Positions 48,309-51,649 of a DNA stretch of 64,000 nucleotides are shown here, piece after piece. Origin of the DNA: Azospirillaceae bacterium (GTDB lineage: Bacteria > Pseudomonadota > Alphaproteobacteria > Azospirillales > Azospirillaceae). Position numbers and translations under genes: made by a program. A model generated the notes under the pieces. That model did no database searches. It saw only the letters and a list, made by a program, of their open reading frames with translations, and was not told the origin of the DNA. Within the stretch, counting starts at the first letter, position 1. Each line of letters starts with the position of its first letter. Where the stretch lies: positions 1,139,501 to 1,203,500 of the forward strand of contig JAPWJW010000003.1 of the NCBI GenBank assembly GCA_028283825.1, written 5' to 3'.

Positions 48309-48977
48309 TTATTTGGCGGGGCCGGCGGCTATGGCCTCACGGATGCCCTTCACCATATCCTCCGCCGTCGTGCCGCGGGCGAAGATGGTGGCCAGGCGGT
48401 TGTTCGGGTCCATGAGGTAGACGTAGGTCGAGTGATCCATGAGGTAGTTTTCCGGATCATCGCCATTGACCTTGGCGGCATAGACCCGCCAGGCGCGGAT
48501 GGCCCCCTGCACCTGGGCAGGCGTGCCGGTCAGCCCCACCATGCGGGGATGGAACTGGGCGACGTAGTCCGACAGCTGCTGCGGCGTGTCGCGCCCGGGA
48601 TCGACGCTGACGAACAGCGGCTGCACCTTGTCGGCGTCGGGACCCAGTTGGTCCATGGCCTGGGCCATGACCTGCAGTTCCGTGGGGCAGATGTCCGGGC
48701 AGAAGGTGTAGCCGAAGAACATCAGGCGCCAGGACCCGTCGTAGGTCTTTTCCGTCACCGCCTTGCCCGACTGGTCCACCAGGGCGAAGGGGCCGCCCAC
48801 CGCCACGCCGGGCACGATGCGGCCCCCCGTACCGCCGGCCGGCGCGCCGCCCGTGCTGCTGGCGCTGGACGCCGGCCGCGACGACGGCGGCGCCCCCAGC
48901 CACCAGCCCACCAGGGCGGCGAGGATGAGCGCCGGCACCACGGCCAGCAGCAGGCGGATCAGACGTTTCTTGGCCAT
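48309..48977 (-). CDS. SCO1/SenC/PrrC-family copper-binding protein
   Basis: Membrane-anchored thioredoxin-fold protein (222 residues). After the anchor helix (LLLAVVPALILAALVGWWL, seen as VVPALILAALVGW) and a Ser/Gly linker come the copper ligands CPDIC (Cys93, Cys97) and a His in LMDHSTYVYL near 184. It assists CuA assembly of cytochrome c oxidase. It is the first gene of a pair with the PCu(A)C chaperone. Confidence 0.93.
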   Translation of the reverse strand: MAKKRLIRLLLAVVPALILAALVGWWLGAPPSSRPASSASSTGGAPAGGTGGRIVPGVAVGGPFALVDQSGKAVTEKTYDGSWRLMFFGYTFCPDICPTELQVMAQAMDQLGPDADKVQPLFVSVDPGRDTPQQLSDYVAQFHPRMVGLTGTPAQVQGAIRAWRVYAAKVNGDDPENYLMDHSTYVYLMDPNNRLATIFARGTTAEDMVKGIREAIAAGPAK

Positions 48978-49078
48978 GGATGGGGAATGCCCGCGCAACG
49001 GGAAGAAGGGGTCGGCGCCTAAGGTAACGCGCCTGCCCCGGCATTCCTATGGTCCTTCCGGCGGGTCTGGCCGGCCAC

Positions 49079-49117
49079 AAAAAAAGGGCGGGCGGCACCC
49101 ATCGGCACCGCCCGCCC
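49079..49117 (-). terminator. Rho-independent terminator of the PhoH-family gene
   Basis: A 10-bp stem GGGCGGGCGG/CCGCCCGCCC (49086-49117) followed on the minus strand by TTTTTTT, 22 bases after the stop. Confidence 0.85.
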
Positions 49118-49139
49118 GTCTTCCCAGCGTTATCGGGAA

Positions 49140-49892
49140 CTACAAGACATTCAGCATGCTGGCCACCAGTGGGTGACGCACGATGTCCTTCTCGTTCAGG
49201 CGCACCACGGCGATGCCCTCCACCGGTTCCAGCCGGCGGGCGATGTCGGACAGGCCGGACAAGCCGTTCAGCAGGTCCGACTGGTCCGGGTCGCCGGTCA
49301 GCACCATGGTGGAATGCCAGCCCAGGCGGGTCAGCAGCATCTTGATCTGGCCGTAGGTGCAGTTCTGCGCCTCATCAATCACCACGAAGGCGTTGTTCAG
49401 GGTGCGGCCGCGCATGAAGCCCACCGGCGCGATCTCGATGGTGCCCTCGGCCATCAGGGTGCGCAGACGCTTGCCGCCCAGGCGGTCGTTCAGCGCGTCA
49501 TAGAGCGGGCGCAGGAAGGGGGCCATCTTCTCCCCCATGTCGCCCGGCAGGTAACCGATGCTCTCCCCCGCCTCGATCGCCGGGCGGGACAGGATGATGC
49601 GATCGACGGTCCCGGCCTCCAACGCCTCCACCGCGCTGGTGATGGCGAGATAGGTCTTGCCCGTGCCGGCCGGCCCCAGGGCCAGCGCCAGATTGTGGGA
49701 CTGTATCGCCTCCATCAGCACCTTCTGATTGGGGCTCTGGGGTTTGACCTTGCGCACATAGCTCTGGTCCCGCCGTTCCTCGATGGGGTCCCAGGTGCCG
49801 GTGCGCACGGGCGCGGCATCGGGGAAAAGCGGGCGGACCTTGTTGTCCGAGGTGGAGCCACCGGAAGTCACCTTCACTGGACGCTTGGCCAT
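49140..49892 (-). CDS. PhoH-family ATPase
   Basis: PhoH-like ATPase (250 residues from the ATG at 49892, preceded by AGGAGA). Walker A is GPAGTGKTYLA near residue 72 and Walker B VVIDEAQN near 168, with the family segment RPAIEAGESIGYLPGD between and LTGDPDQSDL after. Members are linked to RNA metabolism and ribosome maturation with YbeY, though the exact role is unsettled. This gene is not beside ybeY or miaB here, unlike the usual PhoH/YbeZ operon, so it may be a second PhoH-type protein. Confidence 0.88.
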   Translation of the reverse strand: MAKRPVKVTSGGSTSDNKVRPLFPDAAPVRTGTWDPIEERRDQSYVRKVKPQSPNQKVLMEAIQSHNLALALGPAGTGKTYLAITSAVEALEAGTVDRIILSRPAIEAGESIGYLPGDMGEKMAPFLRPLYDALNDRLGGKRLRTLMAEGTIEIAPVGFMRGRTLNNAFVVIDEAQNCTYGQIKMLLTRLGWHSTMVLTGDPDQSDLLNGLSGLSDIARRLEPVEGIAVVRLNEKDIVRHPLVASMLNVL

Positions 49893-49995
49893 GTCTGTCT
49901 CCTCAGTCACACCGGTTTGCGCCGCCGGCGGGACCGCCGGCGGTCAAGGTTACTAGGCAGGCAGGAACCGCGTGCCGCGGCGACAGCCGGGCACG

Positions 49996-50031
49996 AAAAA
50001 ACCGCATCCCCCGGTGTGGGGCATGCGGTTT
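49996..50031 (-). terminator. Terminator hairpin upstream of the PhoH-family gene
   Basis: On the minus strand, AAACCGCAT pairs with ATGCGGTTT around an inner CCCC/GGGG stem and is followed by TTTTTTC. It lies about 105 bases before the PhoH-family start, so it ends an upstream minus-strand RNA or acts as an attenuator in the leader. Confidence 0.7.
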
Positions 50032-50335
50032 GGGATGGGCCATCGCGGGCGACGCTGCGGACTGTCCCGATCCGGGCAATCCCGATGCGGGGCGTCCCGA
50101 TCCGGGGACGCCAAGTCCCGGCAGTGCGTCGTGGCGAAGGGGCGATGGCGGCTGGGCGGGGGTCAACGGCATCGGGTGCGTCAGGGGGACTTGATCCCCC
50201 CGGTGGTCAATCGGCAGCGAAGGCAGCAGCGCGCAGATTGGCAAATCCCCGACCCGTCATTCTGGAGTGACGACCCTGGCAGGCACTTTACCGCAGGTGC
50301 GAGCGTCTGTCAGCAGGCTTGGGGTGGTACACCGA
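50000..50335 (-). ncRNA. Candidate small RNA or attenuated leader
   Basis: A minus-strand transcript is suggested by a TATATA box near 50344 with TTTCCG about 19 bases upstream, and a strong terminator at 49996-50031. The interval contains stable hairpin sequence (GGGGGATCAAGTCCCC) and the three tandem repeats. It matches no RNA family that I can recognise. Evidence is indirect. Confidence 0.25.
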
Positions 50336-50837
50336 ATATTCACACTATATATAGTGGCTAGGTCGCTCGAGTCGGAAAGCCGCAATCACGGCCGACGCCC
50401 GTACCCCGAGTCGCCGGAGGCGGCCTGCCCCTTCGGGATAAGCCCGGCGCGCGCATCACCCGGGGCTTCATCACGCGACAGCCAAAACCCGCCCGCGATT
50501 CAAGCGCCTGGGCCCCCGGGGCCGAAGGACACCGTGTGCGACGCAAGACAGCCACCTCCCCCCGAAGGTGCACTTAGACTCAATAAATATTGTGTGCGCC
50601 GGCGGTTTCCGCTCAAAATATGGATCTGAGGATTCCCTTGACGCCTGTACCCTATCTGGTCTTGAAACGCGCTTTCGACGGGTTCGGCACGGGCGTGGCC
50701 CCCTTCTTCAGAAGGTGGCCGCCTTATCATAGGGCCCTCTGCCCTCCTCGGGCGACCATCGTCCCCCACGTCCGTCCCCGCCGGGGCGTGGCCGGGGGCA
50801 TCCGGTCGGTGGTGGGGCTTCGAGGCCAAGGGTTACA

Positions 50838-50861
50838 CCCGGGGGTTCCCCCGGGGATTTT
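50838..50861 (+). terminator. Terminator-like hairpin just before minC
   Basis: CCCGGGGG-TT-CCCCCGGG followed by GATTTT, 18 bases before the minC ATG. It could stop transcription from upstream or attenuate minCDE. Confidence 0.4.
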
Positions 50862-50878
50862 GAGGGGTCAGGGGCGAG

Positions 50879-51649
50879 ATGAGCAACCAGGTGGCATTCC
50901 GCGACGCACCATTCCAGCTGCGCGGCAGCAACTTCACCATGATGGTGCTGAAGGTCTCGGACCCGCACGCCCAGAACTTTTTCTTCGCGCTGTCGGACAA
51001 GGTGCGCCAGGCGCCCAATTTTTTCCGCAATGCGCCGGTAGTGCTGGACCTGGATGATCTTCCGCCGGGCCAGGGTTTTGATTTTGAGAATTTCTGCGAC
51101 CTGCTGCGCACCTTGGGCCTGATCGCCGTGGGCCTGCAGGGCGGCACCCGCGAACAGCAGGAGGCGGCGCTGGCCGTGGGCCTGGCCGTGTTCCCGCAAG
51201 GGCGCGCCGCGGCCGAGGCGCCGGCGGCCCAACCGGCCGCACCGCGGCCGGTGGCCGTGGCCGACGCGCCCGCCCCGGCGGTGACGGCGGCACCGGCGCA
51301 CGACCTGCCCTACCAGAAGGCCACGCTGCTGGTGCGGGAGAATGTGCGGTCCGGCCGGCAGCTGTACGCCCAGGGCGGCGACCTGGTGGTGATCGGGTCG
51401 GTGTCGCCCGGGGCCGAGCTGGTGGCCGACGGCAACATCCACGTCTACGGCTCGCTGCGCGGCCGCGCCCTGGCCGGCATGGCCGGCGACCGCAACGCCC
51501 GTATCTTCTGCCAAAGCCTGGAGGCGGAGATGGTCTCCATCGCCGGGCTGTACCGTGTCAGCGAGGATCTGGAGAAATCCGTCCTGCGCCGCCAGGTCCA
51601 GATCTACCTGGACCAGGGTTTCCTTCACATCGATCCGGTCACCGTCTGA
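50879..51649 (+). CDS. minC: Septum site-determining protein MinC
   Basis: MinC (256 residues) blocks FtsZ assembly away from midcell when recruited to the membrane by MinD. The N-terminal FtsZ-inhibiting domain (residues 1-105) is linked by an Ala/Pro-rich stretch to the C-terminal beta-helix that binds MinD. The beta-helix is seen in GDLVVIGSVSPGAELVADGNIHVYGSLRGRA, read in parts as VVIGSVSPGAELV and GNIHVYGSLRGRALAG. First gene of minCDE. Confidence 0.96.
   Translation: MSNQVAFRDAPFQLRGSNFTMMVLKVSDPHAQNFFFALSDKVRQAPNFFRNAPVVLDLDDLPPGQGFDFENFCDLLRTLGLIAVGLQGGTREQQEAALAVGLAVFPQGRAAAEAPAAQPAAPRPVAVADAPAPAVTAAPAHDLPYQKATLLVRENVRSGRQLYAQGGDLVVIGSVSPGAELVADGNIHVYGSLRGRALAGMAGDRNARIFCQSLEAEMVSIAGLYRVSEDLEKSVLRRQVQIYLDQGFLHIDPVTV

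Follow-up and report, generated by a model that had tools for sequence, protein, structure and literature searches.

The phoH gene of an Azospirillaceae bacterium appears to be preceded by a leader that carries an intrinsic terminator in attenuator position, a reading to which comparative sequence analysis gives a probability of about 0.85. The analysis covered one stretch of 64,000 nucleotides (the window), which corresponds to positions 1139501-1203500 of contig C3 in a genome of 7.16 Mb, together with loci from related genomes. According to the proposed mechanism, a conserved promoter (50313-50285) would start the phoH message, and the C-rich leader of about 283 nt would end at a terminator within the 5' UTR of phoH. 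Many transcripts would stop at this point and phoH would be made through read-through, so that the terminator would act as an attenuator. Read-through would probably depend on whether a leader ORF that starts with the TTG codon at 50244 is translated: a ribosome close behind the polymerase would block the hairpin, and a lagging or absent ribosome would let it form. A palindrome upstream of the promoter would serve as operator for a presumed regulator. The element is best filed as a phoH leader of the attenuator type, which is absent from Rfam and belongs to a general type already known. A literature search returned no report of an attenuator in a phoH leader, which is not proof of absence.

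Proteins with a PhoH domain occur widely and are related to RNA, and a terminator built into the leader across the class would mean control after initiation, probably via translation. The attenuator would probably set the amount of the RNA-handling PhoH protein that is made. In E. coli, phoH is subject to phosphate control.

The region between phoH and minCDE

The region 49893-50878 separates two divergent units, phoH on the minus strand and minCDE on the plus strand, and it is the common control region for these genes, with two back-to-back promoters predicted within it (Table 1). It is single-copy in its own genome. The family around the window genus includes Azospirillum, and a DNA search of this family gave matches in 11 of the 82 genomes: the own genome, the six other members of its genus, each matched at this very locus, and four further genomes with nothing but short matches. 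Alignment with relatives, which the sequence-only reading had proposed as a check, confirmed that the region is conserved in the six other genus genomes, with 69-73% identity over about 800-870 of the 986 bases. When seven genus members and one representative of another genus were aligned, the conserved parts were the region of the phoH Shine-Dalgarno sequence, the terminator, a block from about 50213 to 50356 covering the 5' part of the RNA, the promoter and the palindrome, and the block in front of minC (50572-50665). The genus alignment is variable from the terminator to about 50130. The three tandem CCCGATCCGGG-type repeats that had been noticed before do exist, but they sit in an insertion of the window species that none of the other aligned genus members shares, and they were rejected as a functional unit.

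Table 1. Features of the phoH-minC region (positions in the window)
Feature	Position	Strand	Basis
phoH coding region, PhoH-family ATPase, 250 codons	49140..49892	-	PF02562, E 4.7e-80
phoH Shine-Dalgarno sequence GAGGAG	49899..49904	-	sequence; kept within genus
Leader ORF, TTG start (50244), 113 codons, spans the terminator	49903..50244	-	ORF list, phase, stops; translation predicted
Intrinsic terminator, putative attenuator position	49996..50031	-	fold stability, comparison across loci, covariation
Terminated leader RNA, predicted, about 283 nt	49996..50278	-	5' end deduced from promoter
Three tandem CCCGATCCGGG-type repeats, period 15	50053..50106		absent from relatives
Promoter CTGACA-N17-TAAAGT, conserved	50285..50313	-	sigma-70 scan and alignments
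Palindrome CACTATATATAGTG, operator-like, NrdR-box resemblance	50343..50356		conservation
minC promoter block, conserved, TTGACG at 50638-50643	50572..50665	+	genus alignment
Two NrdR-box-like elements, 31-bp period, upstream of minC	50580-50595 and 50611-50626	+	paired-box scan
minC, first gene of minCDE	50879..51649	+	TIGR01222

Besides its Pfam assignment, the phoH product matches the NCBIfam model PRK10536 under the cut-off (199.5 vs 380 bits). A second PhoH-domain gene with 54% identity is located at positions 1924888-1925496 of the same contig, and such a gene likewise occurs in most family genomes among the matches listed. For comparisons across the family, the 82 genomes yielded 78 loci, after removal of two genomes in which only the second PhoH paralogue was found (G049, G051) and two without phoH alignment (G043, G017). 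The sample from the rest of the class comprised 26 of 46 matches outside the family, namely those for which a locus was obtained. In two loci of other genera, a SHOCT-like ORF of 68 amino acids with Pfam matches below the cut-off lies on the minC strand (L020:1060-1263 and L032:1055-1258). In these genera it sits between the phoH-side promoter and minC, and none was seen in the window genus.

The sequence-only reading had placed the start of the RNA at a TATATA-type -10 element with an upstream TTTCCG, neither of which is conserved. The TATATA patch is the core of a conserved palindrome, CACTATATATAGTG, which had been located two bases off at 50341-50354 and is actually found at 50343-50356, about 30 nt upstream of the conserved -35 element. 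The promoter is instead predicted at CTGACA-N17-TAAAGT, the sole site returned by a sigma-70-like scan of 49000-51000 (one found, 0.3 expected in shuffles). A strict search detected its -35 element in 54 of 67 aligned loci; eight of the 13 loci lacking it are g11 genomes, where GTGACG was seen by eye. The -10 element, also judged by eye, reads TAnnnT in most aligned rows. From the position of this promoter, the RNA would start near 50278. Because the TATATA patch is an operator-like palindrome upstream of the -35 element, a terminated RNA of about 283 nt is expected rather than one of about 340 bases. In Azospirillum, the palindrome takes the form CACAACATCTTGTG or CACCACATCTGGTA, usually with a GAATnTT-like motif next to it, and it was also seen upstream of phoH in several class loci outside the family. 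The search for it over the 78 family loci used a loose limit (8 substitutions in 23) and was positive in 67; seven were negative, including one of the window genus (G062), and in the other four no run of five T's lay within reach. The 67 leaders are C-rich (C 42%, G 28%, T about 14%), and in 10 of 12 genera the C/G ratio is 1.4 or more.

The terminator ahead of phoH

The strong minus-strand terminator that had been claimed for 49996-50031 is real and most probably sits in the phoH leader. Its hairpin extends from 50031 to 49999 and is followed by a U tract to 49996. The fold has a free energy of -23.5 kcal/mol (z -5.1), and none of 200 shuffles was equally stable. The 3' end lies 103 nt ahead of the phoH ATG. 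A simple terminator scan of the region did not list this hairpin, probably because three of the U's pair with A's, which leaves too few past the stem.

One rule, requiring a terminator on the phoH strand at most 200 nt from phoH, was applied across all loci. Within the family, such a terminator was found in 73 of 78 loci vs 25 of 780 shuffles, and it was absent under this rule from the remaining five. As a control, the same rule was applied to the minC strand ahead of minC and gave a terminator in 0 of 30 cases. In other families of the class, 14 of 26 loci carry a terminator before phoH vs 13 of 260 shuffles; under the rule used, the other 12 have none. The gap between terminator and phoH is at most 50 nt in 33 of the 73 family loci, with a minimum of 35 and a frequent value of about 44 nt, and it ranges from 18 to 119 nt in the class loci. 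In the g13 genomes, the phoH start set by the rule is possibly about 80 nt too far downstream, so that their gaps would be overstated. Since gaps as short as 18-50 nt leave no space for a separate promoter, phoH would need read-through. The terminator is assigned to phoH because the upstream neighbor in the window is divergent, so that no other gene needs a stop there. A minC match was found in just one of the 26 class pieces (L264), which is itself without a terminator. The gene upstream of phoH may have the same direction as phoH in part of the class loci.

The stem was further analyzed in the window genus, g11 and g12 (13 sequences in all), where 95.5% of the cells pair and two positions are compensated. 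None of 500 shuffles reached the covariation score or the number of changed cells; the count of pairs changed on both sides is not above chance, as 338 of 500 shuffles reach it. In Azospirillum, another stem, CCTCCC/GGGAGG, occupies the place of the terminator.

The stretch between the terminator and phoH contains further elements in individual genomes. In the window, a perfect GC-rich inverted repeat, CCGCCGGCGG, lies at 49922-49943 between the terminator and the phoH Shine-Dalgarno sequence, and relatives have a different repeat nearby. In two g13 genomes (L033, L034), a short ORF of about 10 codons (MAQRRFGSRR in L033) was seen by eye past the terminator, ending just ahead of the likely phoH start.

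A leader reading frame across the terminator

The earlier statement that the region has no protein-like frame holds at the level of amino-acid conservation, but one of the leader frames has stayed open and retained its phase. In the window, its stop codon TGA (49905-49903) overlaps the phoH Shine-Dalgarno sequence, and in Azospirillum the ORF often continues into phoH in another frame. In one genome (G063, locus L006), the leader frame has no stop ahead of phoH and is in frame with it, which gives an open frame of 374 codons.

The frame counts cover 40 of 42 leaders of the Azospirillum group and six of seven window-genus genomes, which are not independent of each other. In none of these 46 genomes does the TTG frame stop before the terminator (0/40 and 0/6, respectively). 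The other two frames have such stops in 8/40 and 12/40 leaders of the Azospirillum group and in 6/6 and 4/6 of the window genus. Up to the end of the leader, the TTG frame is open in all 40 leaders of the Azospirillum group, the other two in 30 and 28. Length differences point in the same direction. A conserved GCACCGGCA block, present in 34 of these 40 leaders, is found at distances of 42, 72, 78, 93, 135 and 168 from the TTG, each of them divisible by three. Two anchors were used in the window genus; their distances from the TTG are 94/106/109 (7/7 genomes) and 130/139/148/157 (6/7 genomes) and differ by multiples of three. The rule is not followed from the RNA start to the TTG, nor from the anchors to the terminator. 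The phase of the leader was first noticed by eye in part of the same sequences, and this evidence is thus partly post hoc.

In 40 of 42 leaders of the Azospirillum group, the TTG follows GAGG, a good Shine-Dalgarno sequence. In the window genus, a Shine-Dalgarno sequence before the TTG was found in 0/6 genomes at 5/6 matches and in 2/6 at 4/6 matches, which is not above shuffles. A conserved small protein encoded in the TTG frame was rejected, since a substitution test revealed no synonymous preference in this frame, and the 113-codon frame had no match in a Pfam search. An alternative frame beginning with the ATG at 50260 was also discarded; it contains stops in relatives and reached a z of 2.0 with one reference and of -0.6 to 1.0 with others. 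We read the leader frame as being under selection for its translation and not for the peptide. The TTG frame has the highest proline content of the three frames, and it is a matter of speculation that ribosome delay in this proline-rich frame plays a role.

Control of phoH via translation of its leader, i.e., translation-coupled attenuation similar to that of pyrBI, is given roughly even odds. A constitutively leaky terminator is a possible but tentative alternative: it would lower phoH expression in a constant proportion, independently of translation, and the frame would be open partly because of composition. It is consistent with the unconserved amino acids, with a search for an antiterminator in 66 leaders that found none (mean z +0.27 vs the 5' arm), and with the depletion of stops in every frame of the C-rich leaders (2.49 open frames vs 1.96 in shuffles), because of which the openness of the frame is partly compositional. 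Indels that stay in phase argue against it, as does the difference between the frames in each of two genera, and the retention of the terminator across the class points to regulation more than to a constant loss. It appears very improbable that the terminator is governed by a riboswitch that binds a metabolite or by some other switch in RNA structure, even though a position just ahead of the Shine-Dalgarno sequence is typical for such switches. Apart from the missing antiterminator, the fold of the whole leader is barely above shuffles (z -1.6, 15 of 200 as good), the interior is poorly conserved, and Rfam gave no match in the region at the cut-off. Below the cut-off, there were seven weak matches at chance level, the best of which is BcKCsr2 on the terminator hairpin (E 0.1).

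The sequence-only reading had suggested a small RNA or an attenuated leader of phoH. Its leader part is well supported, as phoH is accompanied by the terminator throughout the class, often at a distance too short for a separate promoter. The free-standing small RNA is not supported as main reading. A terminated leader of about 283 nt that acts in trans on other messages, either on its own or in dual use, would fit the possession of an own promoter and a strong terminator, and some short RNA is expected whichever reading holds. This option is nevertheless considered doubtful, as the element recurs ahead of phoH in family and class (73/78 and 14/26 loci) and is thus not independent of the downstream gene; furthermore, it exists in a single genomic copy, has no Rfam match at the cut-off, and its interior is poorly conserved, unlike that of an sRNA bearing a seed. 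In the sections consulted of a published sRNA survey of A. brasilense (PMC7685610), no link to the leader and no mention of phoH was found.

The layout proposed for translation-coupled attenuation of phoH has parallels in known systems. As in pyrBI of E. coli with its leader pyrL, a leader ORF (putative in the case of phoH) spans an intrinsic terminator before the structural gene, and no antiterminator would be needed. In pyrBI, a U-rich pause region accounts for the UTP sensitivity of the switch. In contrast, the phoH leader is C-rich (C 42%, T 14%), has no U-rich pause region and precedes a different gene. Because of this composition, it is not assigned to the pyrBI family, although its mode of action may be similar. 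For pyrL, it has been reported that a closely following ribosome prevents formation of the terminator hairpin, and that termination is restored in the absence of EF-P by stalling at proline runs (PMC5021804). The mdtU-mdtJI system of E. coli, in which a uORF and premature termination lie upstream of the gene (PMC7815308), has the same layout, as do other 5' UTR terminations with uORFs. However, mdtU-mdtJI is Rho-dependent and has a conserved peptide end, while the phoH leader has an intrinsic terminator and its peptide is not conserved. Attenuators of the trp type depend on mutually exclusive switching and on regulatory codons. Unlike in trp/his-type attenuators, neither an antiterminator nor a run of regulatory codons was seen in the phoH leader. 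The trp attenuator of Sinorhizobium meliloti (rnTrpL/peTrpL) is similar in being an alphaproteobacterial attenuator that gives a short RNA, which has been reported to act in trans (PMC7298713).

NrdR-box-like elements

The minC-side boxes resemble the NrdR operators of ribonucleotide reductase (RNR) genes in consisting of paired 16-bp palindromes with a 15-bp spacer; they differ in that the genes here are not RNR genes and that the second box on the phoH side is weak. NrdR operators have been described as 16-bp palindromes 15-16 bp apart (PMC12051234), and a single NrdR box with activation has been reported at topA (PMC4409342). NrdR is encoded in the genome. For scoring, we used the letters that we take to be the NrdR consensus. 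The pair upstream of minC scores 17/20, compared to maxima of 14-16 in six Markov sequences. On the phoH side, the first box in the window reaches 10/10 by a ten-position score. With up to three mismatches, the paired pattern occurs at four sites in the genome, including the minC side, and at none in the reversed control; none of the three other sites lies at an RNR gene. The score of the best pair, averaged across 77 family loci, is 14.3 vs 11.9 in shuffles, and many Azospirillum genomes are not above shuffles. A genome search for single-box operators was uninformative (four matches vs four in the control).

Pairs at RNR genes reach scores of 13-16 in the own genome and, with a period of 31 bp, of 15-16 at loci of three relatives (L238-L240), which is not clearly above chance. 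At L215:760-1000, an RNR gene presumably has a cobalamin-riboswitch-like leader, as judged by eye, and immediately upstream of it lies a pair of boxes with a score of 16. A literature search found no report of NrdR at minCDE, which does not prove absence.

On this basis, action of NrdR at the candidate operators of the region is judged unlikely. About as improbable is a combined scheme, in which the dNTP-sensing repressor NrdR would bind operators on both sides of the region and jointly control division-site selection (minCDE) and the phoH message, and phoH would in addition be gated by the closeness of ribosome and polymerase in the C- and proline-rich leader. If this scheme were true, PhoH would respond to lost coupling of transcription and translation, and this helicase-like family would gain a defined signal. 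The paired candidate operators upstream of minCDE also suggest a possible influence of a nucleotide-sensing repressor on genes for cell division. The best paired site of the genome, with one mismatch, is found elsewhere (L219:1501-1545, contig C1 positions 48531-48575), beside what by eye are a tRNA-like sequence and an integrase-like ORF.
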